NCBI RefSeq assembly: GCF_018739865.1
Contig: NZ_JADOER010000008.1
Location: forward strand, 1 to 64,000
Origin: Leptothoe kymatousa TAU-MAC 1615
GTDB lineage: Bacteria > Cyanobacteriota > Cyanobacteriia > Phormidesmidales > Phormidesmidaceae
Length of the DNA: 64,000 nucleotides
Reading direction: 5' to 3'
Shown here: in pieces, positions 39,166 through 56,356 of the stretch
How the letters are laid out: every line of letters starts with the position of its first letter
How positions within the stretch are numbered: position 1 is the stretch's first letter
The notes under the pieces: generated by a model
The model's input: only the letters and a program-made list of their open reading frames with translations
Databases searched by the model: none
What the model was told of the DNA's origin: nothing
Position numbers and translations under genes: made by a program

Positions 39166-40680
39166 ATGAACACGTTTCTAACGCTTCTAGTTAACCAAAT
39201 TGTTGACACATTATTTGAAAATGCTCCCAACGTTGAAGATCTCGGCGATCTTTTTGTGGGCAACAATGGCGATGACGCCTTCCAGGGGGGCGATCAAGAT
39301 GATATTTTTATCACCGGCGATGGGGATGACGTCGTTCGCGGTGGTGCTGGCACCGATGTGGTGTTTGCTGGCCAAGGTGAGGATACGGTTGTTGGCCAGA
39401 CCGGCAATGATGTTGCCTTTCTAGGCTCCGGCGATGACCGCTTTATTTGGAATAATGGGGACGGGAGCGACTTTATTGATGGGGGTTCCGGCTACGATAC
39501 TACCCAGGTAAATGGTGCCGATGGCCCTGGCGATGAGTTTGACCTCAAGGCAGAAAATGGCCAGGCCCTCTTTAACCGTCTGAATCTGGGCCCATTTACC
39601 CTAACCAACGAAAGTATTGAGCAGTTTGAGATCAACGGCCAAGGTGGGGATGATGTTTTAACCGTGGGCGACTTGGCTGGCAGCGATGTTAAAAAAGTTG
39701 TTTTCTCGGGCGGTGCTGGCAATGACGTTTTAGACGCCCGGGAAAGCTCCACCACCATTGAAGCTTTAGGCGGCGACGGCCACGACCTATTGCAGGGCGG
39801 TGCGGCCGAAGATACCTTCTTTGCCGGAGCCGGTGATGACATCGTTGTGGGCCAGCGCGGCAATGACACCGCCGACCTGGGCTACGGCGACGACCGGTTT
39901 ATCTGGAACAATGGCGACGGTAGTGATTTTATTAACGGGGGTGATGGGTTTGACGTCACCCAGGTGAACGGAGCCGATGGCCCCGGAGACGAATTTGACT
40001 TGAGCCAAACAGGTGGTCAGGCCATTTTCAATCGTCTGAACCTGGGGCTATTTACCCTAACCAACGAAAGTATTGAACAGTTTGAGATCAATGGTCAAGG
40101 TGGGGCGGATTCACTCACCATCAACGACCTCACCGGTAGTGCCGTGCAATCTGTTATCTTCTCAGGCGGTGATGGTAACGACTTTTTAAATGGGAGTGGG
40201 ACATCGACCCCGATAACGGCCGATGGTGGCGATGGCGACGATATTCTTATTGGGGGGGCCGGTAACGACATTTTGATTGGTGGCGATGGCGCCGACTTGC
40301 TGATTGGGGGAGGCGGTAACGATATCTTGATTGGTGGCGATGGCGCCGACTTCTTTGGTTTCGACACCGGCGCCGCCTTTAATGCGGCTGATATGGGCAC
40401 CAATCAAATCCAAAACTTTGAAGCTATCGATAGCATTGTGCTGGATGTCACTGTCTTTACTCAGCTGACCGTTGGCGCCCTGTCCGCCAGTGAGTTTGCC
40501 GTGGTCAATAGTGCAGAAGCCGCGGCCCTCAGCGATGCGGTCATTGTCTACGGTGCCAACACTGGCAACCTGTACTACAACCCCAATGGGGCAGACACTG
40601 GCTTTGGTAACGGCGCCCAGTTTGCCACCATTGAGGGGGCGCCTGCCTTGGATGCCAATAGCTTTGTCGTTCAGGCTTAG
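39166..40680 (+). CDS. RTX-type calcium-binding surface or secreted protein with an internal duplication
   Basis: 504 residues. Two long homologous blocks (about 85-200 and 225-345) share DDRFIWNNGDGSDFI.GG.G.D..QVNGADGPGDEFDL and FTLTNESIEQFEINGQGG. They are separated and followed by RTX nonapeptides (GGDGDDILIGGAGNDILIGG at about 350-395). The C-terminus has an acidic or hydrophobic tail typical of type I secretion targets. There is no N-terminal signal peptide. The likely role is extracellular structural or adhesion; no enzyme domain is seen. Its context, upstream of a c-di-GMP block, suggests but does not prove a biofilm link. Confidence 0.85.
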   Translation: MNTFLTLLVNQIVDTLFENAPNVEDLGDLFVGNNGDDAFQGGDQDDIFITGDGDDVVRGGAGTDVVFAGQGEDTVVGQTGNDVAFLGSGDDRFIWNNGDGSDFIDGGSGYDTTQVNGADGPGDEFDLKAENGQALFNRLNLGPFTLTNESIEQFEINGQGGDDVLTVGDLAGSDVKKVVFSGGAGNDVLDARESSTTIEALGGDGHDLLQGGAAEDTFFAGAGDDIVVGQRGNDTADLGYGDDRFIWNNGDGSDFINGGDGFDVTQVNGADGPGDEFDLSQTGGQAIFNRLNLGLFTLTNESIEQFEINGQGGADSLTINDLTGSAVQSVIFSGGDGNDFLNGSGTSTPITADGGDGDDILIGGAGNDILIGGDGADLLIGGGGNDILIGGDGADFFGFDTGAAFNAADMGTNQIQNFEAIDSIVLDVTVFTQLTVGALSASEFAVVNSAEAAALSDAVIVYGANTGNLYYNPNGADTGFGNGAQFATIEGAPALDANSFVVQA

Positions 40681-40870: not shown

Positions 40871-42874
40871 TTAAGCCTGCAATTGGGGGGCATGACTTTC
40901 CGATGCCCATCGGTTGCGGCCACTTTCTTTCGCTGCATAGAGGGCCATATCCGCTGTTTTTACCAACTCTTCAGGGGAAGATTTCGAGTTGGGAATACAG
41001 CAGGCCACCCCTAGACTTAGGGTGACGCAGTCGCTGGTTTTAGAACTCCTATGGGGGATGTTTAGCCCCTGCACCTGGAGCCGTATTTGTTCGGCCACGT
41101 GCTGAGCGCCCTCTAGAGGGGTGTTGGGTAAAACAATAACAAACTCCTCGCCCCCATATCTAGCGGTCTCATCGGCCGGCCGCTTAACCGGTTGTTTGAG
41201 CGCTTGGGCCACAGCCTTTAAGCAATCGTCCCCCGCTTGGTGTCCGTAGGTGTCGTTATATAGCTTAAAGTGGTCAACATCACACAAAATTACGGACAGG
41301 GGCTGTTGTTCCCGCTGTAGTCGTTTCCATTCTTTGGCCAAACAGTGACTAAAATGACGCCGATTCGATAGCTGTGTGAGTTCATCGGTGTTTGCCTGGT
41401 TCAGCAGTTTTTGATTGGCAATTTCTAGTTGAGAGTAAAGTACGGCCTGTTGGATTGCCAGTCCGATTTGGGCTGTAATTTGTTCAAATAGTTTAATCTC
41501 TGACCGTTCCCAGCGGCGGGGTTCTTCCTGGCTTAGGAGCAGTAATCCCCAAAGATTTTGTTTGACCAGGATGGGCGCAATTAAAACAGAACGAATGCCA
41601 TGGGCTGCTAGAAATCGCGTCTTTTGGGAGGAGCGATCATCGGCTTCTAGATCCGGTACGGAATGGACCCTGCCGCTGGCATAGAAATCCATATCCAGCT
41701 GGGCTAGGGCCGGACCTAGCGGCGATGCCGTTGGAGCCCCATTGCCGGCCACCGCGGAGCCGGCTTCGGCAATGATTTCCCCCGCCGGTCTCTCCTCATC
41801 CACAATTCGATAAATTAATGTTCTACCGGCCTGAAAGAACGCGCTGACCTCATCAACAGCGGTGGTCAAAATCGAGGTGAGTTCTAGGGATTGGCGAATA
41901 TTTTGTGTAATGCGATTGACCAGGCGTTCTCGGGCGATTTGTTGTTGTAGGGCTGCCTTAGCGCGCTTTCGTTCTTGAATAGTGCGCTCTAACTTTTGGT
42001 TGGCCTGGCTCAGATCGACAGTATGCTCATCAATGATATTGGTCAGTGTCTTGAGGGTAAGCTGGGCTTCATCGGGTTCTACCGATTGAAACAAGCTACT
42101 TTGGGTCACAACCCCGGCTAGAAAGCCATCGGTACCTACCACCACTAACCGTCGGGTCCCATCGGTGGTCATTAGTTTATGGGCATACCACAGGGAATCT
42201 GTGGTGAGAATGCACCGAAACGATCCGTTGATCAGGTCCTGGGCTTGGGTATGGTCAAAGTTGGCCCCTTGCATCCATAGGTGGATAATATGGGGCTCAG
42301 TGACCACACCAATGGGGCGAATACAGCCCAGCATCGGTGATGCTTCGCCAATGACGATACAGCTAACCCGATGGGAGGCCATCAAATTGCTCAATTCTGT
42401 TAAGGAGGTGTGGGGTGGTGCCCAAATCACCTGCGATGTCATTACTTCTTCGACGTGGCGCAATCGCAGTAAATCAATCGGGTTGAGCAGACGACTGAGG
42501 TTGTCGTAGGTGATCACCCCCTCAATACAGCCCTGGTCGCTGACCAAGGGGAGGTGGCGGATTTTGTGCTGACGCAATAGGAGTCTGGCGGTTAGCAGGT
42601 CTGTAATTTGGTCGATGTGGCTGGTGATGACCTCAGCTGGCATGACTGCAGCTAGGGAGATATCGGATGAGTGTCGACTGTTAACGATGATATTTAGTAG
42701 ATCGCGTTCTGTTAATAGGCTGGCGAATTTGTTGCCCGCCTGTGCTACTAAGATATAGCTGCTGGCCGCTGTCTGCATCTGGATCAGCGCACTCTTGATA
42801 GACTCGCCTGGTGTTGTGATGGGGGGATGGCGATCAATAGCTCGTTCTAAGGCGAAGCTGGAAACGGTAGACAT
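40871..42874 (-). CDS. CBS-CBS - GAF - GGDEF diguanylate cyclase
   Basis: 667 residues, soluble. Four CBS motifs in two pairs (about 20-140 and 145-270; e.g. MPAEVITSHIDQITDLLTARLLLRQHKIRHLPLVSDQ, then VEEVMTSQVIWAPPHTSLTELSNLMASHRVSCIVI) suggest adenosine-nucleotide sensing. A coiled linker leads to a GAF domain (about 330-480), then GGDEF with the active motif GGEEF at 574-578. An inhibition-site RxxD (RPAD) lies just before it. It would make c-di-GMP under control of an energy or nucleotide signal and a GAF ligand. The GAF lacks the Cys-His of phytochrome-type bilin sites. Confidence 0.9.
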   Translation of the reverse strand: MSTVSSFALERAIDRHPPITTPGESIKSALIQMQTAASSYILVAQAGNKFASLLTERDLLNIIVNSRHSSDISLAAVMPAEVITSHIDQITDLLTARLLLRQHKIRHLPLVSDQGCIEGVITYDNLSRLLNPIDLLRLRHVEEVMTSQVIWAPPHTSLTELSNLMASHRVSCIVIGEASPMLGCIRPIGVVTEPHIIHLWMQGANFDHTQAQDLINGSFRCILTTDSLWYAHKLMTTDGTRRLVVVGTDGFLAGVVTQSSLFQSVEPDEAQLTLKTLTNIIDEHTVDLSQANQKLERTIQERKRAKAALQQQIARERLVNRITQNIRQSLELTSILTTAVDEVSAFFQAGRTLIYRIVDEERPAGEIIAEAGSAVAGNGAPTASPLGPALAQLDMDFYASGRVHSVPDLEADDRSSQKTRFLAAHGIRSVLIAPILVKQNLWGLLLLSQEEPRRWERSEIKLFEQITAQIGLAIQQAVLYSQLEIANQKLLNQANTDELTQLSNRRHFSHCLAKEWKRLQREQQPLSVILCDVDHFKLYNDTYGHQAGDDCLKAVAQALKQPVKRPADETARYGGEEFVIVLPNTPLEGAQHVAEQIRLQVQGLNIPHRSSKTSDCVTLSLGVACCIPNSKSSPEELVKTADMALYAAKESGRNRWASESHAPQLQA

Positions 42875-42961: not shown

Positions 42962-45397
42962 TTAATGGGGATTGGCGATGGCCAGATATTTTTCGGCGGC
43001 GGCGGCGGGTAAGGGTTTGGAAAATAAATAGCCTTGGCTGGCATCGCAGGCAAGGGTTTGCAATTCTGTTAGTTGTTCGTGGGTTTCTACCCCTTCGGCA
43101 ATGGTTCTAAACCCTAAGGCTTTGGCTAAATTGATGATCGCACTGGTAATTCTAAGGTTGCGATCGCTATTATTCAATCTATGCACAAAAGAACGGTCAA
43201 CCTTAATGGTGCTGATGGGAAATTGTTGTAAATATCGCAGGGAAGAAAACCCCGTGCCAAAATCATCTAGACTCAGCTCAATCCCCCGGCTACGAATCAG
43301 TTCCATGATTTCCGTGGCCGCCTGGATGTTGTGAATCAAACTACTTTCGGTGATTTCTAATTTCAGACACCGTGGATCTAATTGAGTCTCCTCCAAAATA
43401 GTATCCAGCACATCGAGCAACGAAGGATCTCGAAACTGTTGCCCAGACAGATTTACACTAAGGTATAAATCCGTTGTCACTTTCCCTTCCATCTGCCAAG
43501 TTTTTAATTGCTCACAGGCATTGCGTAACACCCAATCGCCAATGCTGTTAATCTGTCTAGTTTCCTCAGCAATGGGAATAAATTCCGAGGCCGGTATCAG
43601 TCCCTTTTCTGGTTGATGCCAGCGCAATAACACCTCAAACCCCTCCAGGGTATGGGGGGGATGCAGATGCACAAGGGGTTGATAGTACAGGCGAAACTCT
43701 CGTTTTTTAACCGCCTGCCGCAGTGCCGTTTCGGTGTCTACTAAATGCAGGGTTTGCAGATACATGGTTTGGTCAAATACGGCATATCCCGCTTTCCCCT
43801 GGCTTTTGGCCCGATACATGGCAATATCGGCATCGCGGATAATCTCATCCACTGACTGATACGATAGATTAGAAAAAACAACACCAATGCTGGCACTGGT
43901 GAAAATCTCCCGCCCCTCTAGGTAAAAGGGCTTTTGCAACTCATTTTGTAGACGATAGGCTGTCTTTAGGGCATCGTTGAGACTTTCTAGCTTCTCTAGC
44001 AGAATAAGAAACTCATCCCCCCCTAGGCGCGCCACGCCATCGATCTCTCTGACGATTGCCTTTAGCCTTTGGGAAACTTGAATCAGCAGCTGATCGCCCG
44101 CTAAATGGCCAAGGCTATCATTGATATGCTTAAAGTTATCGAGATCCACAAACAAAACGGAAAAGTGTTCATGGGAGTTGCGTTTCTGTTGCTCGATGGC
44201 CAGTTCCAAACGGTTTAAACAACACACTCGATTATCCAAGCCGGTGAGGCTATCGTGCAATGCTTCGTAGGTTAAGCGGGCCTCTGAAGCCCTACGCTGG
44301 GAAATGTCGCGCCCACTACCATACAGCAAGTTTTCTTGGGGAAATGGCACTAGATTCCAGGCTATCCACTGATAGCCTCCATCTCTTGACCGCATTTTTA
44401 GTTCTAACCCATTGATTTCTTTTCCCTGGGCTAGGGTCTCCCGTAACTCCTGCATACTATTGTTATCTTCTGGCACCATGAACTGCCAGAAAGGCTGGCC
44501 CAATAAATCGTCAGCCGTATGGCCAAAGGTGTTAGACCAGGAGGGGTTGACGCGCCTAAATGTACCGTCTGTGTCGGCAATAAATAATAGATCAATAGCG
44601 AGGTTGAAAAAGCGATCGCGTTCTATTTCCGCTTGCTTCCGCTCAGTAATATCGTGAATCATGCCAAACCGTAGGGTTTGGTGTTGGGCTTTTACCCACG
44701 ATTCGGATAGCAACACGGTGCGATCTTTGCCGATGGAAGATTCTAAAGACAGTTCGGTTTTTAGAATCCGAGACGGTTGCTTTTGCCTGCTTTGGCGTTG
44801 GGTTCCCTGGGACAGAAGCTTTTGCAATATTGGGTAGTCATGTAGGGCGGGTATTTTCCCCAAGCTGGGCTTAGGCGGACAGGCACACAAATGCCTAAGG
44901 GATTGGTTCAGAAACAGCACCTCCCCCGCTTCAGTGGCCATATAGATCCCATCATGGATACTTTGGAGCACATGGGTTAATAGCCGAATTTCTGCGGCGG
45001 CCTGGGTTCGTTCTATGGCATGGAGAATGGAACGCTCGAGCAGTGGCCCGGTCAACAGTTTACCTTTGACTAAATAATCGGAAGCGCCTATGGCCATACA
45101 TTGGCGATCGATGTCATAGTTGCCAAAACCCGTCAACAGAATAATGGGTTTGCGTAGACCAGACTCCACCGCCGCTTGTAGTAGATCTAGTCCCGTTTCT
45201 GCCCCCAGGTGGTAGTCCAATAGGTAAACATCATGACGGTCGGCATACAGGGCTTCTAACCCCGCCTGGTAAGTGTCTATCCAGGTCAACTCAAACGATG
45301 CCTGTTCTGCCTCTTCGAGTAAGTCACGGGTAACAATATAGTCATCGCTATCGTCATCGATTAGCAAGACTTTGTATACCAAATTGCTCATTTGCAT
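42962..45397 (-). CDS. REC - PAS - GGDEF - EAL response regulator
   Basis: 811 residues. Receiver (about 5-125): DVYLLDYHLGAETGLDLL with the phospho-Asp and the switch Lys in SDYLVKG. A PAS-like segment (about 135-250) and a canonical PAS domain (about 255-375, ending GSGRDISQRRASEARL) follow. The GGDEF motif is intact (VARLGGDEFLIL). The EAL motif reads EVL (FEVLLRW), with LEITES, LDDFGTGFSSLRYL, KVDRSFV and AEGVET, so phosphodiesterase activity is plausible. It has GGGAG upstream of the start (ATG 45397; ATG 45391 also possible). Output is likely c-di-GMP turnover under control of an unidentified kinase, perhaps one of the neighbours. Confidence 0.9.
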   Translation of the reverse strand: MQMSNLVYKVLLIDDDSDDYIVTRDLLEEAEQASFELTWIDTYQAGLEALYADRHDVYLLDYHLGAETGLDLLQAAVESGLRKPIILLTGFGNYDIDRQCMAIGASDYLVKGKLLTGPLLERSILHAIERTQAAAEIRLLTHVLQSIHDGIYMATEAGEVLFLNQSLRHLCACPPKPSLGKIPALHDYPILQKLLSQGTQRQSRQKQPSRILKTELSLESSIGKDRTVLLSESWVKAQHQTLRFGMIHDITERKQAEIERDRFFNLAIDLLFIADTDGTFRRVNPSWSNTFGHTADDLLGQPFWQFMVPEDNNSMQELRETLAQGKEINGLELKMRSRDGGYQWIAWNLVPFPQENLLYGSGRDISQRRASEARLTYEALHDSLTGLDNRVCCLNRLELAIEQQKRNSHEHFSVLFVDLDNFKHINDSLGHLAGDQLLIQVSQRLKAIVREIDGVARLGGDEFLILLEKLESLNDALKTAYRLQNELQKPFYLEGREIFTSASIGVVFSNLSYQSVDEIIRDADIAMYRAKSQGKAGYAVFDQTMYLQTLHLVDTETALRQAVKKREFRLYYQPLVHLHPPHTLEGFEVLLRWHQPEKGLIPASEFIPIAEETRQINSIGDWVLRNACEQLKTWQMEGKVTTDLYLSVNLSGQQFRDPSLLDVLDTILEETQLDPRCLKLEITESSLIHNIQAATEIMELIRSRGIELSLDDFGTGFSSLRYLQQFPISTIKVDRSFVHRLNNSDRNLRITSAIINLAKALGFRTIAEGVETHEQLTELQTLACDASQGYLFSKPLPAAAAEKYLAIANPH

Positions 45398-45520: not shown

Positions 45521-45985
45521 TTAACTTAGACTGACTTCATCGGGCAAATCTACGATGTCAAACCAGTATGTCCCCAGGGTCTCCATAATACTAACCATAG
45601 ATTGGAAGTTCACAGGTTTTGTAATAAAAGAATTTACTCCTAGTTCGTAGGTTCGTAGGATATCTTCTTCGGCTTTGGAGGTGGTTAATACCACAACTGG
45701 AATACTGCGCAGGGTAGGATCACTTTTTATCTCTGCTAGGGCTTCTCGACCGTCTTTTCGAGGCATGTTCAAATCTAATAAAATTAGCGTAGGTCGGGGC
45801 GCCATGCCTGGCTCTCCATAGTCTCCTCGTTGATATAGATAATCCATCAAGGCTTCCCCATCTTCAACAAAATACAGACTATTAACCGCCTGATTCTCTG
45901 CTAAAGCTTCCTGGGTGAAAAGGCGATCGTCTTCATCATCCTCAGCCATGAGAATAATGATAGGTTTACTCCGCTGGTAAGACAT
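45521..45985 (-). CDS. Single-domain response regulator, Rcp1-like
   Basis: 154 residues. A receiver with the acidic pair in MAEDDEDDR, the phospho-Asp in LILLDLNMPRKDGREAL, and the Lys in SFITKPVNF. The short C-terminal extension (TLGTYWFDIVDLP) is typical of Rcp-type regulators of phytochrome-class kinases. The start at 45985 lies 20 nt inside the end of the kinase gene upstream, the usual arrangement of a cognate pair. There is no output domain. Confidence 0.9.
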   Translation of the reverse strand: MSYQRSKPIIILMAEDDEDDRLFTQEALAENQAVNSLYFVEDGEALMDYLYQRGDYGEPGMAPRPTLILLDLNMPRKDGREALAEIKSDPTLRSIPVVVLTTSKAEEDILRTYELGVNSFITKPVNFQSMVSIMETLGTYWFDIVDLPDEVSLS

Positions 45986-48900
45986 TTGTTTCCTCTTGGG
46001 ACTGATGAACCGGCAAGGTGACAATAAATGTGGACCCTGCTCCAGGCTGGCTTTCGGCCCGAAGACTTCCGCCGTGGCGTCGAATGACTTTGCGGCAAAT
46101 CGCTAGGCCAATGCCGCTGCCCTCATAGGTTTTGCGCCCATGCAGCCGCTGGAATGGTTGGAAAATGCGATCGCAATACTTAACATCAAACCCTATGCCA
46201 TTATCGATCACCCGCAATTCACAAACTTCTTTTTCCCCCATGCCACAATGGTTCACCCGCACCTGAATCTGGGGTGCTACACCGGGTTTATGAAACTTTA
46301 GGGCATTGCTCAAAAGGTTTTGAAAGACCTGTTGCATTTGCGTCCGGTCCGCATCAATGGTTGGTAATGGAGCCAAATTTATAATAGCGCCAGTTTGCTC
46401 AATGCGGACTTCCAAATCCGACAAAACCCCAGCCATAACGTGAGATAAATCAGTGGGGTTAAACGGTTTGGCCTGGGTCGTCACCCTCGAAAAGCTCAGC
46501 AAATCATTAATCAATACCTGGGCCCGCATCGCCGCATTTAGCATCCGTGCCAAATAATCTTGCCCTTTGTCAGAAAGGCCATCCTGGCAGGTGTGGCCTA
46601 AGCGATCTCCAAAGGCCTGCACTTTGCGCAAGGGCTCCTGGAGATCATGGGAGGCCACATAGGCAAAGTCCTGGAGTTCCTGATTACTTTCCTCCAATCG
46701 TTTTGCAGTGCGCTGTAGGGTCTTAATCAACTGCTGACGCACCCTAATTTCATTATTAAGCTTTTGCTCGGCCAGCTTGCGCGCCGAAATATCCCGCATA
46801 ATTGTTGAGCTGCCAATAACCAGCCCCACCCGATCCCTCAGGGGGGAAATGGTCAGCGAAACGTCTAAAAGCGCACCGTCTTTATGGCAGCGAACGGTTT
46901 CAAACTGATCAATGCTCTTACCTTGCTTGAGCTGTTCCAACGTTTTACTCACTTCAGCCATCCGATCCGTCGGGAAAAGCATCGTCACCGGTTGTCCAAT
47001 CGCGTCCACCTCCGAATACCCCAAAAGTTTTTCTGCGCCTGTATTCCAACTGGTAATACAACCATCGACTGTCTCCGTAATCACGGCATCATCGGTGGAC
47101 TCAACAACGGCCGCCAGCAAACGCACCGTTTGCAGCGATCGATAATGCTGCACCGTGCGCCAAACCAAATTGAAAATCAACTGCACCGTCTCAATATCCA
47201 TGTCGGTGTAGTTGCTGCCCTTATTACCCACCCCGGTCAGCATCACCACCTTGCCATTTTCAATTACAGGAACACTCAAGAGGCGATTCAGCCGCTCATG
47301 CTCTTCCAGTAGTCCTTGCTTTTTCAACACTGCTTGCTCATGTAAAGAGGGGCCACAGGCTCTATTGCAAATGACGGGCTGACGCTGGTGCAAAACATCG
47401 GCCAACATGCCGGCCTGATCAATGGGCAGGTGGTTCTCAGCGGCAACATGACCAAAATCAGTCCACGCTTCCTGGGTCCGATTCATCAGCTCAAAGGTCG
47501 CTTGCTCCTCATGGACAAGGTAAAGAAACGACATCTGACTGCCCGTTAAACTCTCGGCAATGTCCTGGGCCTGCTGCATAAAATCATGTTCATTCAATTG
47601 CTCAGCTAGCAGGGGTAGCTCTAACAACGCTTCTGCTCGATGCGCCTGGTGGGTTAGGGCAACTTCAGCCGCATGGATGGCTGAGATATCTCGCACACTG
47701 ACCACCGCCCCCGTAATCGTTCCATCCACTTCTCGATAAGGGGTATAGGTGACATCTAAATATTGCCGTAGCTCCTCTGCCATGGCAAAGAAACTCTGAT
47801 AGTGAACTTCTTCCCCCGCAAAGGTGCGATCCAGATTAGGTTTTACCGTTTGGAGAAACGTTTCCTCCCCCAGCAGCTCTGCTACCGAATGCCCGACAAT
47901 CTCGGATTTGGATTTACCAAACTTCTCAGCGTAGACGTCATTAACCATGGAATAGACATAATTTCGATCCACAAACGACATGTGGTCAGGTGTAGTACAG
48001 ATGGCTCGCTCATAGAGGCGCAGCATCTCTTCCGTTTTTTTCCGTGCATTGATATCTTCAATCACACCAATAAAGTAATCCGGGTCGCCATTGGGCTGGC
48101 GTACTAGGGCCCCGGTTAGATTGGCCCAGGTTACGGTGCCATCCTTTCGGAGATAGCGTTTTTCCATGCGGTAGGTTCTGATCTGGCCCGCCAGAGCCTG
48201 CTGGCAATAGGCCGAATTAGCATCTACATCATCTGGATGCGTAATCACCTGAAATTCGAGGTTTAGCAGGTCTGTTTTAGGGTGGCCAACAATGTCACAA
48301 TAGCGCTGGTTGACGCGCATAATTTGGCCTGTGGGAGAAATATGGACAATCCCCACGGCCGCTTGCTCAAACGTGTTGCGGAACAGGGCCTCTTTCCGGG
48401 CAGTTTCGTCTTGAGCCGCTTTCAGTCGTAGTTCTGTCTGTTTACGCTCGGTAATATCGGTGAGGCATCCCACATAGCCGACCACCTGATTGGCATGGTC
48501 AAATTCTGGGACCGCTTTTTCATACACCCAAGTCACCGGCCCCGACGGACGGCCAAATCGATATTCCAAGACAAACGGCAGGTTCTCGCTGGTGGATTGA
48601 TGCCATTCCGCCAAAACGGCGTCCCTATCCCCTGGATAGAGTGCCTGAACCCAGCCTGTTCCTAACATTTGTGCAAGGGGTAACTGGGCAATATTGCACA
48701 AATGTTGATTAGCGTAGATGCAATTGCCCTCAACATCTGTACGAAAAATGCCCACCGGGGCGGCCGCCGCAAGGCTGGCAAAGCGTTCTTCACTCTCCTT
48801 CAGCAAGTGTTCGGCTTCCTTCCGGGCAGTGATGTCGTAATTGGTGCCAATCATACGAATGGGCGCTGCTTTGTCATCACGTTGAATCAGACCATTGGCT

Positions 48901-49619
48901 TTCATATACCGCACTGTGCCATCGGCATGAATGACCCGAAATTCAATGTCATAGGCGGCCTCATTGCTTAGCGCGCGCTGCATAGCCGCTTCCGCCGCCG
49001 GTCGATCCTGCGGGTAGATATGGCTGGCCCAGGCTTCGTAATTTCTCTCAAAGGCGGCGGGCGTTGTGCCATAGAGTTCATGGAAACGATCGTCCCAGGT
49101 CAATGTGTTGTGGGTAATGTCCCAATCCCAAATGCCAATGCCCACCGCCTCCAGGGCTAAGTTCAGCCGGGTTGATAACTCTCTTAGCTCAGCTTCGGCC
49201 TGTCGCCGTTCAGCCACTTCCTGCTGCAATTGATGGTTCAAGGCATCTAGCTCAGCTGGGCTGCGCAAGTCTAAGGCCTTCGGGATTACGGGGATGATGG
49301 CCATCGCCGTGTACGTAGAAATGAAAGCCGTCATTGCCTTCAGGCTGCCAGACACCCAATAGTCCGAATACCACAGGGTCCAAACATTTGCTAAGTGGGT
49401 GGTCCCACAAAAAATAATAAACGCAGCAAAAAGCAGGAAAATATTGTGAAAAGGCAAATCCCGACGCTTTCTAAGGAAATATAACAGCGTGATGGGAATA
49501 GAATAATAAGCTAGACCAATTAAAACGTCCGATACTAAATGCAAGCCGACTAGACCGGGTCTCCACAAATAACAATAGCCATGGGGCATGTACTGGCCAA
49601 GTAATGGCATATTCAACAT
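45966..49619 (-). CDS. Ethylene-receptor-like multi-PAS, GAF, phytochrome-class histidine kinase
   Basis: 1217 residues. The N-terminus is a three-helix membrane domain (about 24-115) like plant ETR1 and cyanobacterial SynEtr1. Its key residues keep ETR1 spacing with a constant offset of +6: Asp31, Tyr38, Ile41, Pro42, Cys71 and His75 (SDVLIGLAYYSIP, FCGTTHLANVW). Cys and His ligate copper for ethylene in ETR1. A coiled stretch leads to four PAS domains (about 145-660), a GAF domain (about 665-835), a fifth PAS (about 845-965), HisKA (ASHDLQEPLRK, about 1000) and HATPase (NALKFH, DNGIGFD, GSGIGLA). The Rcp-like regulator overlaps its end. It is a candidate sensor of ethylene or of the copper site's redox or light state; this is inference from ligand conservation. 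Confidence 0.9.
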   Translation of the reverse strand: MLNMPLLGQYMPHGYCYLWRPGLVGLHLVSDVLIGLAYYSIPITLLYFLRKRRDLPFHNIFLLFAAFIIFCGTTHLANVWTLWYSDYWVSGSLKAMTAFISTYTAMAIIPVIPKALDLRSPAELDALNHQLQQEVAERRQAEAELRELSTRLNLALEAVGIGIWDWDITHNTLTWDDRFHELYGTTPAAFERNYEAWASHIYPQDRPAAEAAMQRALSNEAAYDIEFRVIHADGTVRYMKANGLIQRDDKAAPIRMIGTNYDITARKEAEHLLKESEERFASLAAAAPVGIFRTDVEGNCIYANQHLCNIAQLPLAQMLGTGWVQALYPGDRDAVLAEWHQSTSENLPFVLEYRFGRPSGPVTWVYEKAVPEFDHANQVVGYVGCLTDITERKQTELRLKAAQDETARKEALFRNTFEQAAVGIVHISPTGQIMRVNQRYCDIVGHPKTDLLNLEFQVITHPDDVDANSAYCQQALAGQIRTYRMEKRYLRKDGTVTWANLTGALVRQPNGDPDYFIGVIEDINARKKTEEMLRLYERAICTTPDHMSFVDRNYVYSMVNDVYAEKFGKSKSEIVGHSVAELLGEETFLQTVKPNLDRTFAGEEVHYQSFFAMAEELRQYLDVTYTPYREVDGTITGAVVSVRDISAIHAAEVALTHQAHRAEALLELPLLAEQLNEHDFMQQAQDIAESLTGSQMSFLYLVHEEQATFELMNRTQEAWTDFGHVAAENHLPIDQAGMLADVLHQRQPVICNRACGPSLHEQAVLKKQGLLEEHERLNRLLSVPVIENGKVVMLTGVGNKGSNYTDMDIETVQLIFNLVWRTVQHYRSLQTVRLLAAVVESTDDAVITETVDGCITSWNTGAEKLLGYSEVDAIGQPVTMLFPTDRMAEVSKTLEQLKQGKSIDQFETVRCHKDGALLDVSLTISPLRDRVGLVIGSSTIMRDISARKLAEQKLNNEIRVRQQLIKTLQRTAKRLEESNQELQDFAYVASHDLQEPLRKVQAFGDRLGHTCQDGLSDKGQDYLARMLNAAMRAQVLINDLLSFSRVTTQAKPFNPTDLSHVMAGVLSDLEVRIEQTGAIINLAPLPTIDADRTQMQQVFQNLLSNALKFHKPGVAPQIQVRVNHCGMGEKEVCELRVIDNGIGFDVKYCDRIFQPFQRLHGRKTYEGSGIGLAICRKVIRRHGGSLRAESQPGAGSTFIVTLPVHQSQEETNVLPAE

Positions 49620-55024: not shown

Positions 55025-56356
55025 TCAATGCGCATTGATAGGCGCTGGCTGGTCCCAGATAATGTAGCGATCGCGGCCCTGTTCTTTTGCCTGATATAGG
55101 GCTTGGTCGGCGGCATGAATAAGTTGTTCCCAGGTTTGTTCCCTAGAGGGAATAACCGTGGCAATGCCGATGCTAATGGTGACGTAGGGTTTGATTTTCG
55201 ACTTGGCATGGGGCACCTTCACTTCGTGGAGGCGCCGTTGAATCAGTTGGGCCACCTTCACCGCATCATTGGTATCGTTCCCAGGCAAGATAATGCCAAA
55301 CTCCTCGCCGCCGTAGCGGGCTACCACCTCCCCTGCGCGTTTGGCACTAGTACTCAACGCTTGGGACACCGTCTTGAGGCAGTCGTCCCCAGCCTGGTGG
55401 CCATAGGTATCGTTATAGGGTTTAAAGAAATCAACGTCACACAGCAACAACGATAGCGGTAGTTGTGGGCGAATTGCCCGTCGCCATTCTTCGTCTAAAC
55501 GTTGGTCAAAGTAGCGTCGATTTGCAATTTGGGTCAAACCATCTAGATTCGCCAACCGATTGAGCTCTGCCGTTCGGTCGGCCACTTTCTTTTCGAGTTC
55601 AACATTGATGAACCGGAAACGACTAATCACCAAGCTGAGGCCAATTACCGCCAGCAGGCTAAGCACAATCAGAATCATATAGTGATTGCGCAGACCTTCC
55701 TGGGCCATGAGGAGAATCTCGTCTAGGGGCTGGGTGATGGCAATAACGCCTCTGACATCACCCACTTTCCAGTCTTTCTTAGGGCTGGAATATAACTTGT
55801 TATGGCATTCGACGCAGCTCGCTTTCATTTGCACCGCTTCGGCATAGCGAAAGGAGACCTGATCGTTGATTTTTTCTTTGCGGAAAAACGATGCCGTAGG
55901 ATTTTTGCGTAGATAGGCTAGGGCATCTTGTTCAAAGCTATCTTGGGGACCGCCTGTTGCTTGACGGTTAGGAAACGGATAGTCGCTGTATAGTCTAAAA
56001 ATAGAGCCCTTGGCCAGGTCGGTGATATTCTCACTGAGCTCGATGGAAAATGTTGCTGGCACTGGAATTGCACCATCCGTAGAATGGTATTCGGGCGTTA
56101 GGGTGACCCCTTCAACGGACCTGAGGCGCTGGGCCACATTTTCGCTATAGAGCACCCGGGTTTTGTTGAGAGTGTCAATGCTGATGCGGGCATATTGTTG
56201 GGCCTGGGCCTCCACCAATTTGACGGATAGGTTATAGCTGCCGGCTAAGCCAATGCCCAATCCTAAGCATAGCAACAGCACTAGGATTAATGTGATATGT
56301 TCGCAGAGGAGCTGATACCCTTTTTTGAACCGACGGATGATGCGGGAAAAAATCAT
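55025..56356 (-). CDS. Tll0287-like (DUF3365) heme-domain diguanylate cyclase
   Basis: 443 residues. Membrane helix 1 (about 20-42), a periplasmic domain (about 43-215) with a covalent c-type heme motif CVECH (Cys181, Cys184, His185), helix 2 (about 225-246), a coiled-coil, then GGDEF with GGEEF at 349-353. The residues RAGE stand where the inhibition site RxxD is expected, so feedback control may be weak. The sensor domain is of the Tll0287/DUF3365 type, proposed to sense redox or gas ligands. Thus a periplasmic redox signal would set cytoplasmic c-di-GMP. The gene stands alone, and a palindrome lies just upstream of its start. Confidence 0.9.
   Translation of the reverse strand: MIFSRIIRRFKKGYQLLCEHITLILVLLLCLGLGIGLAGSYNLSVKLVEAQAQQYARISIDTLNKTRVLYSENVAQRLRSVEGVTLTPEYHSTDGAIPVPATFSIELSENITDLAKGSIFRLYSDYPFPNRQATGGPQDSFEQDALAYLRKNPTASFFRKEKINDQVSFRYAEAVQMKASCVECHNKLYSSPKKDWKVGDVRGVIAITQPLDEILLMAQEGLRNHYMILIVLSLLAVIGLSLVISRFRFINVELEKKVADRTAELNRLANLDGLTQIANRRYFDQRLDEEWRRAIRPQLPLSLLLCDVDFFKPYNDTYGHQAGDDCLKTVSQALSTSAKRAGEVVARYGGEEFGIILPGNDTNDAVKVAQLIQRRLHEVKVPHAKSKIKPYVTISIGIATVIPSREQTWEQLIHAADQALYQAKEQGRDRYIIWDQPAPINAH

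Follow-up and report, generated by a model that had tools for sequence, protein, structure and literature searches.

The window analysed here is a stretch of 64,000 nucleotides from the cyanobacterium Leptothoe kymatousa TAU-MAC 1615 (positions 1 to 64,000 of contig NZ_JADOER010000008.1), which carries on its minus strand a cassette of three genes encoding a long sensor histidine kinase, a single-domain response regulator of the Rcp type, and a REC-PAS-GGDEF-EAL protein (Table 1). Judging from its sequence, the kinase is probably a bacterial sensor kinase of the ethylene-receptor type, as an earlier note on this DNA had proposed. Its N-terminal membrane domain matches the Pfam family ETR1_N (PF25487) with 136.2 bits and an E value of 4.8e-40 (curated cut-off, 27), and the other Pfam domains, namely PAS_4 in five stretches, GAF_2 (residues 675-823), HisKA (982-1047), and HATPase (1091-1205), confirm the order that the note had read after the membrane domain, with four PAS domains, a GAF, and a fifth PAS. 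The kinase core has an H-box stretch SHDLQEP from residue 990, an N-box at 1101, and G-boxes at 1139 and 1167. No Cys-His dyad was found in the GAF domain, where the sole Cys residues are 751 and 755; we take such a pair to be the criterion for a bilin-binding cyanobacteriochrome GAF, so light sensing in the manner of SynEtr1, a published receptor from Synechocystis, is unlikely. The sensor stack had also been called unusually long, and long it is, but not exceptional, since 21 of 148 ETR1_N proteins, the window's included, reach at least 1217 aa (median, 795 aa), which places the kinase within the longest seventh.

When 148 ETR1_N domains (that of the window is one of them) are aligned with the N-terminus of ETR1, residues D31, Y38, I41, P42, I68, C71, and H75 of the kinase fall on D25, Y32, I35, P36, I62, C65, and H69 of ETR1. 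The six ligand residues listed in the note are all where it had put them, at the exact ETR1 spacing with an offset of +6, and the alignment added I68 as a seventh. Y32 is presumably an ethylene-binding position as well. In the literature, I35, P36, I62, C65, and H69 are named as essential for ethylene binding (PMC6586836), and D25 and C65 as needed for it (PMC11819568). All seven positions are kept in 105 of the 148 domains, at least one being missing in the other 43, and the copper residues C71 and H75 (identities of 0.93 and 0.97) are among the best conserved columns. As far as sequence goes, the ETR1_N resemblance is a matter of homology and not of chance, and the binding positions are intact. 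An AlphaFold model of residues 1-131 (mean pLDDT, 78.5) predicts three long helices (21-51, 58-83, and 87-115), and the mean number of Lys and Arg residues, 2.89 in loop 1 vs 0.05 in loop 2 across 170 sequences, predicts a topology with the N-terminus outside. The position of Asp31 is occupied by Asn in 15 of the 148 domains, and also in the second ETR1_N copies of Leptolyngbya sp. PCC 7375 (L251) and Adonisia (L250); as this substitution is stated to lower ethylene affinity about 100-fold (PMC13012798, a 2026 review), natural low-affinity forms may exist.

The next gene had been described as an Rcp-type regulator overlapping the kinase gene by 20 nt, and both parts of this description hold: the overlap was measured, the protein matches Response_reg, and its closest solved structures by phmmer are a receiver without a name (E 4.6e-38), Rcp1 (5.5e-36), RcpA (1.1e-34), and RcpB (5.8e-34). 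It keeps Asp71 and the motifs TTSK and TKPV, that is, the phospho-Asp, Thr, and Lys of a single receiver, and a model of it made without an alignment is poor (pLDDT, 54.8). The closest full-length relatives of the kinase come from a Leptolyngbyaceae metagenome-assembled genome (L032), Leptolyngbya sp. PCC 7375 (L033), and Adonisia turfae (L034), and the overlap has the same length in all four cassettes. Identity to the window is 75-80% for the kinases, 84-86% for the regulators (that of L032 is cut by the contig end), and 81% for the third protein, which can be compared only in L033 and L034 and has the same REC-PAS-GGDEF-EAL order in both. The third gene follows the regulator gene in the window after 123 nt. 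Beyond the cassette, the flanks of L033 and L034 are unlike the window's, with neither the upstream hybrid kinases nor the CBS-GAF-GGDEF gene adjoining.

Table 1. Features of the cassette and related ETR1_N proteins (window coordinates unless a locus is named).
Feature	Position	Strand	Evidence
ETR1_N - 4 PAS - GAF - PAS - HisKA - HATPase sensor kinase, 1217 aa	45966..49619	minus	ORF and Pfam; motif positions
ETR1_N transmembrane domain, kinase residues 23-118	49266..49553	minus	PF25487 (136 bits in protein scan, 143 bits in genome scan); predicted helices
PHGYCYLW motif, residues 12-19, predicted extracytoplasmic, with His13 and Cys16	49563..49586	minus	Conservation, co-loss with copper pair, topology from charge distribution
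CGTTH, residues 71-75, with Cys71 and His75 equivalent to ETR1 Cys65 and His69	49395..49409	minus	Alignment
PAS and GAF array, residues 173-945	46785..49103	minus	Pfam
HisKA and HATPase core, residues 982-1205	46005..46676	minus	Pfam
Kinase/regulator gene overlap, 20 nt	45966..45985	minus	Same length in window, L032, L033, L034
Rcp-type single-domain response regulator, 154 aa, expected phospho-acceptor Asp71	45521..45985	minus	Pfam Response_reg, Rcp1 match, motifs
REC-PAS-GGDEF-EAL protein, 811 aa, third cassette gene	42962..45397	minus	Pfam; adjoins regulator, 81% identical in L033/L034
CBS-GAF-GGDEF protein, next gene	40871..42874	minus	Pfam; not beside cassette in L033, L034
ETR1_N-GGDEF(-EAL) fusions	L050, L060, L079, L090, L125, L142, L167, L181, L183		Pfam
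Phage-contig ETR1_N proteins	L276:2743-3552, L277:2968-3462, L278:3007-3513, L279:2989-3357		IMG/VR contigs
ETR1_N protein, 289 aa, annotated "hypothetical"	L280:4890-5759 (Maribacter phage Colly_1, MT732450), L281:4890-5759 (Molly_1, MT732451)		

Receptors of this kind are already known, as SynEtr1, GeiEtr1/2, and AzoEtr1 have been published, and the window gene enlarges this small set by a probable receptor whose regulator gene overlaps its own and is conserved. The SynEtr1 domain expressed in yeast binds ethylene, as do cells of Geitlerinema, which has GeiEtr1/2 (PMC6682694), and residues 1-130 of AzoEtr1, the gene for which adjoins that of a single-domain regulator (PMC11819568). Compared by description, SynEtr1 (slr1212, Hik44/UirS/PixA) has, like the window kinase, an N-terminal ethylene-binding domain, a soluble sensor domain, and a His kinase, but differs in its cyanobacteriochrome and its response regulator slr1213 (PMC6682694, PMC11819568); the window kinase instead has five PAS domains, a GAF without the Cys-His pair, and an Rcp-type regulator. 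In Azospirillum brasilense, AzoEtr1/AzoRR-etr1 likewise consists of a receptor kinase directly followed by the gene of a regulator without another output motif, and its biofilm phenotype may be listed as a further likeness, whereas AzoEtr1 has only 525 aa and one PAS, and the partial text of PMC11819568 names no c-di-GMP (cyclic diguanosine monophosphate) gene among its neighbours. GeiEtr2 of Geitlerinema PCC 7105, likened from the description in PMC6682694 and not by sequence or domain order, has 1025 aa, keeps the seven residues, and is grouped with a gene for a diguanylate cyclase domain, although its other neighbours differ. Pairs of the Cph1/Rcp1 type share the Rcp-type regulator, but their sensor is a phytochrome, where that of the window combines ETR1_N with PAS and GAF domains. 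The kinase box SHDLQEPLR is, we assume, like that of the phytochrome kinases.

The special standing that the note had implied for this gene was not upheld, given that the domain is common in the phylum and that neither the length of the protein nor its Rcp and c-di-GMP neighbours are out of the ordinary. Of 292 sampled genomes of the phylum, 74 have a PF25487 match, the window genome being one of them, and in 72 the match exceeds the cut-off; the set of 148 domains leaves out the weakest matches of this survey, five listed places among them. Matches were also found in the class of the alphaproteobacterium that carries L041 (19 of 289 genomes) and in that of Candidatus Thiodiazotropha, the source of L044 and presumably a gammaproteobacterium (13 of 274 genomes, 9 over the cut-off). 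The window genome has a second ETR1_N copy, a kinase of 1269 aa on contig C14 (L048:6554-12769), which lies between an upstream gene for a protein with three receivers, Trans_reg_C, Hpt, and GGDEF and a downstream lone receiver; similar neighbours are found in L098 and L152.

The part most worth pursuing is, to us, the motif PHGYCYLW, which directly precedes helix 1, lies outside the Pfam model, and, by its letters, looks able to bind metal. Across the 148 domains, its identities (P12 0.93, H13 0.90, G14 0.92, C16 0.92, Y17 0.88, L18 0.92, and W19 0.96) are close to those of C71 and H75, and position 15, a Tyr in the window kinase, is His in 109. In ETR1, Cys6 falls on C16 and Trp11 on W19, with no His at the motif. 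Charge distribution places the segment outside the membrane, on the same side as C71/H75, and the AlphaFold model shows a short turn at 13-16 ahead of the first helix, with modest confidence (mean pLDDT of 66 for block 11-20).

The motif tends to be lost together with the copper residues. We compared 170 domains, that is, the 148 plus 22 sequences (2 cyanobacterial and 20 from the two proteobacterial classes) left from 28 added loci after dropping the duplicates L248 and L249, L272 (below 60 bits), and L273-L275 (no match). Both pairs are kept in 150, the copper pair alone in 5, His13/Cys16 alone in 2, and both are changed in 13; in other words, of 155 domains with an intact copper Cys/His, 150 retain His13 and Cys16, vs 2 of the 15 without, motif gaps being scored as lost (in L170, L187, L176, L074, and L185, no motif stretch can be made out clearly). 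Among the 148 domains, H13, C16, and Y17 are, after C71 itself, the conserved columns most strongly associated with C71/H75 loss, and the association persists after stratification by decay at 26 other conserved columns (Cochran-Mantel-Haenszel p 1.6e-7; this and the Fisher values ignore relatedness). In L173, Ser replaces both Cys16 and Cys71. On a tree, the motif is missing as well from 8 of 10 copper-loss groups; in one of these (L074), the nearest copper-intact relative lacks it too. A tree-based pair test over supported branches, underpowered with 6 usable pairs, gave on average 3.7 pairs changing the same way, 1.0 the opposite way, and 1.3 without a difference, and was not significant (p 0.375). 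Two points speak against a link between motif and copper: C71/H75 persist in five domains in which the motif is not complete, and members that have decayed show losses at many positions.

That cyanobacterial proteins have a single N-terminal Cys has been noted before, and a disulphide suggested (PMC6682694). In simulations of ETR1, the protein gives 2 to 3 of the four copper positions and water the rest; the first 15 residues were added by modelling only after the rigid docking, from which they had been excluded (PMC6586836). A further ligand in the bacterial domains is therefore conceivable. We tentatively propose, as a possible though doubtful arrangement, that in bacterial ETR1_N domains, the window's included, the Cu(I) site of Cys71/His75 is completed or loaded by an extracytoplasmic His13-x-x-Cys16, a motif of which plant ETR1 keeps only the Cys. 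If this were true, the plant receptor would be a pared-down form in which the remnant of the motif takes part in the disulphide linking the two halves of the dimer. A text search of the literature did not find the string PHGHC, which weighs little because alignments sit in figures; in any case, the conserved PHGxC motif is relevant to the question, not yet settled, of how many copper sites ethylene receptors have and what they consist of.

With regard to output, the joint appearance of ethylene receptors and c-di-GMP in the literature is not new; in a text search, “ethylene binding domain” and GGDEF together were unmatched, while the hyphenated spelling does match. As matched controls, we used 60 kinases without ETR1_N, found with the kinase core of the window protein in 40 ETR1_N-bearing genomes and chosen by hand among the matches listed; these and 118 ETR1_N kinases, which include the window and the three loci fetched for their similarity to it, were scored alike, with genes called by a simple longest-ORF (open reading frame) script. 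A REC-GGDEF-EAL gene lies within two downstream genes of 12 of the 118 ETR1_N kinases, three of these loci being the window cassette and two relatives, vs 7 of the 60 controls, and a special link between ETR1_N and neighbouring c-di-GMP genes was rejected on these grounds. Where more than 3 kb of room was available, 13 of 108 ETR1_N kinases and 9 of 58 controls had some GGDEF or EAL gene among the next two genes downstream (p 0.63), and a lone receiver is the next gene in 24 of 118 vs 33 of 60, the opposite direction to a special link. As the counts are similar, the cassette seems to be a standard output module of these bacteria, into which this sensor has been plugged. Direct fusions make up 9 of the 148 ETR1_N proteins (7 ETR1_N-GGDEF and 2 ETR1_N-GGDEF-EAL, all Pfam-confirmed), the shortest (in L183) having 302 aa and no further Pfam domain at E <= 1e-8, and they would let an effect of ethylene on c-di-GMP be measured in a single protein.

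If the window kinase is an ethylene receptor, its three-helix domain would hold Cu(I) through Cys71 and His75 and bind ethylene, and the resulting helix motion would alter autophosphorylation at the H-box. By analogy with ETR1 and SynEtr1, for which this direction is stated in PMC11819568, ethylene would lower kinase activity. The phosphate acceptor would be Asp71 of the Rcp protein, possibly along with the receiver of the GGDEF-EAL protein, and the shift in c-di-GMP may affect surface attachment or motility, with the PAS and GAF domains adding cytoplasmic inputs. Several observations weigh against this account. No solved structure is related by sequence to the ETR1_N domain, and a Foldseek search of the PDB gave nothing at E <= 0.001 and only generic helical matches by fold. 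Since the Adonisia relative has Ala at the Pro42 position, conservation of the binding site is not strict among the cassettes. Kinases without an ethylene domain have c-di-GMP neighbours too, which leaves c-di-GMP output weakly supported.

This last point leads to a quite possible alternative, in which a functional receptor signals through the Rcp protein only and the GGDEF-EAL gene answers other inputs; the control counts above and the 123 nt that part the regulator and third genes would fit it, but the order of the three genes and the identity of the third protein persist in L033/L034 despite their differing further flanks. It is unlikely that the protein is a copper (or redox) sensor, with Cu(I) on Cys71/His75 and His13/Cys16 and copper occupancy, not ethylene, as the signal. 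The additional His/Cys pair, which is conserved on the outer side of the membrane and in most cases disappears along with the copper pair, and the occurrence of ETR1_N in stand-alone phage proteins without a kinase would suit such a sensor, whereas bacterial receptors of the family bind ethylene (PMC6682694, PMC11819568), and the ethylene-essential I35, P36, and I62 of ETR1 (PMC6586836) are also kept in the window kinase. We consider it likewise unlikely that the membrane domain is a mere anchor and dimer interface for a kinase that takes its signal from the PAS and GAF domains: five PAS domains and a GAF are ample input, and many domains in the alignment miss one or more of the seven positions, but in the window kinase, the ligand positions are intact, and they rank with the best conserved columns of the alignment.

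Four IMG/VR contigs with phage genes encode ETR1_N proteins that stand alone, with no kinase part (72-103 bits; cut-off, 27); the phage genes include a RusA-like resolvase (L276), an amidase (L277), a weak lysozyme/endolysin match (L278), and an upstream tail protein (L279). The next reading frame in L277 and L278 is a PAS protein, and all four keep the C-x3-H pair, PHGxC having belonged to the search pattern. In the Maribacter phages Colly_1 and Molly_1, ETR1_N (60-61 bits) forms the N-terminal part of the protein, whose gene is followed after 3 nt by one for an N-acetylmuramoyl-L-alanine amidase; in the protein of Colly_1, an N-terminal Cys and CGIGH are present, but the PHG motif is absent. 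Holins often sit directly before such endolysin genes, and our text search of the literature gave no paper joining phage, ethylene receptor, and holin. Further viral scans returned the same contigs, plus one 124695-base record with the Maribacter phage protein.

The wider surroundings in the window are as the note had claimed, with two hybrid kinases, one GGDEF-EAL protein, and two GGDEF proteins found by Pfam. The window also encodes a Tll0287-like sensor domain fused to GGDEF (55025-56356, minus strand; Pfam) and, on the plus strand (39166-40680), a protein of 504 aa that its translation shows to be rich in GGxGxD-like repeats, which we take to resemble the calcium-binding repeats of the RTX type.

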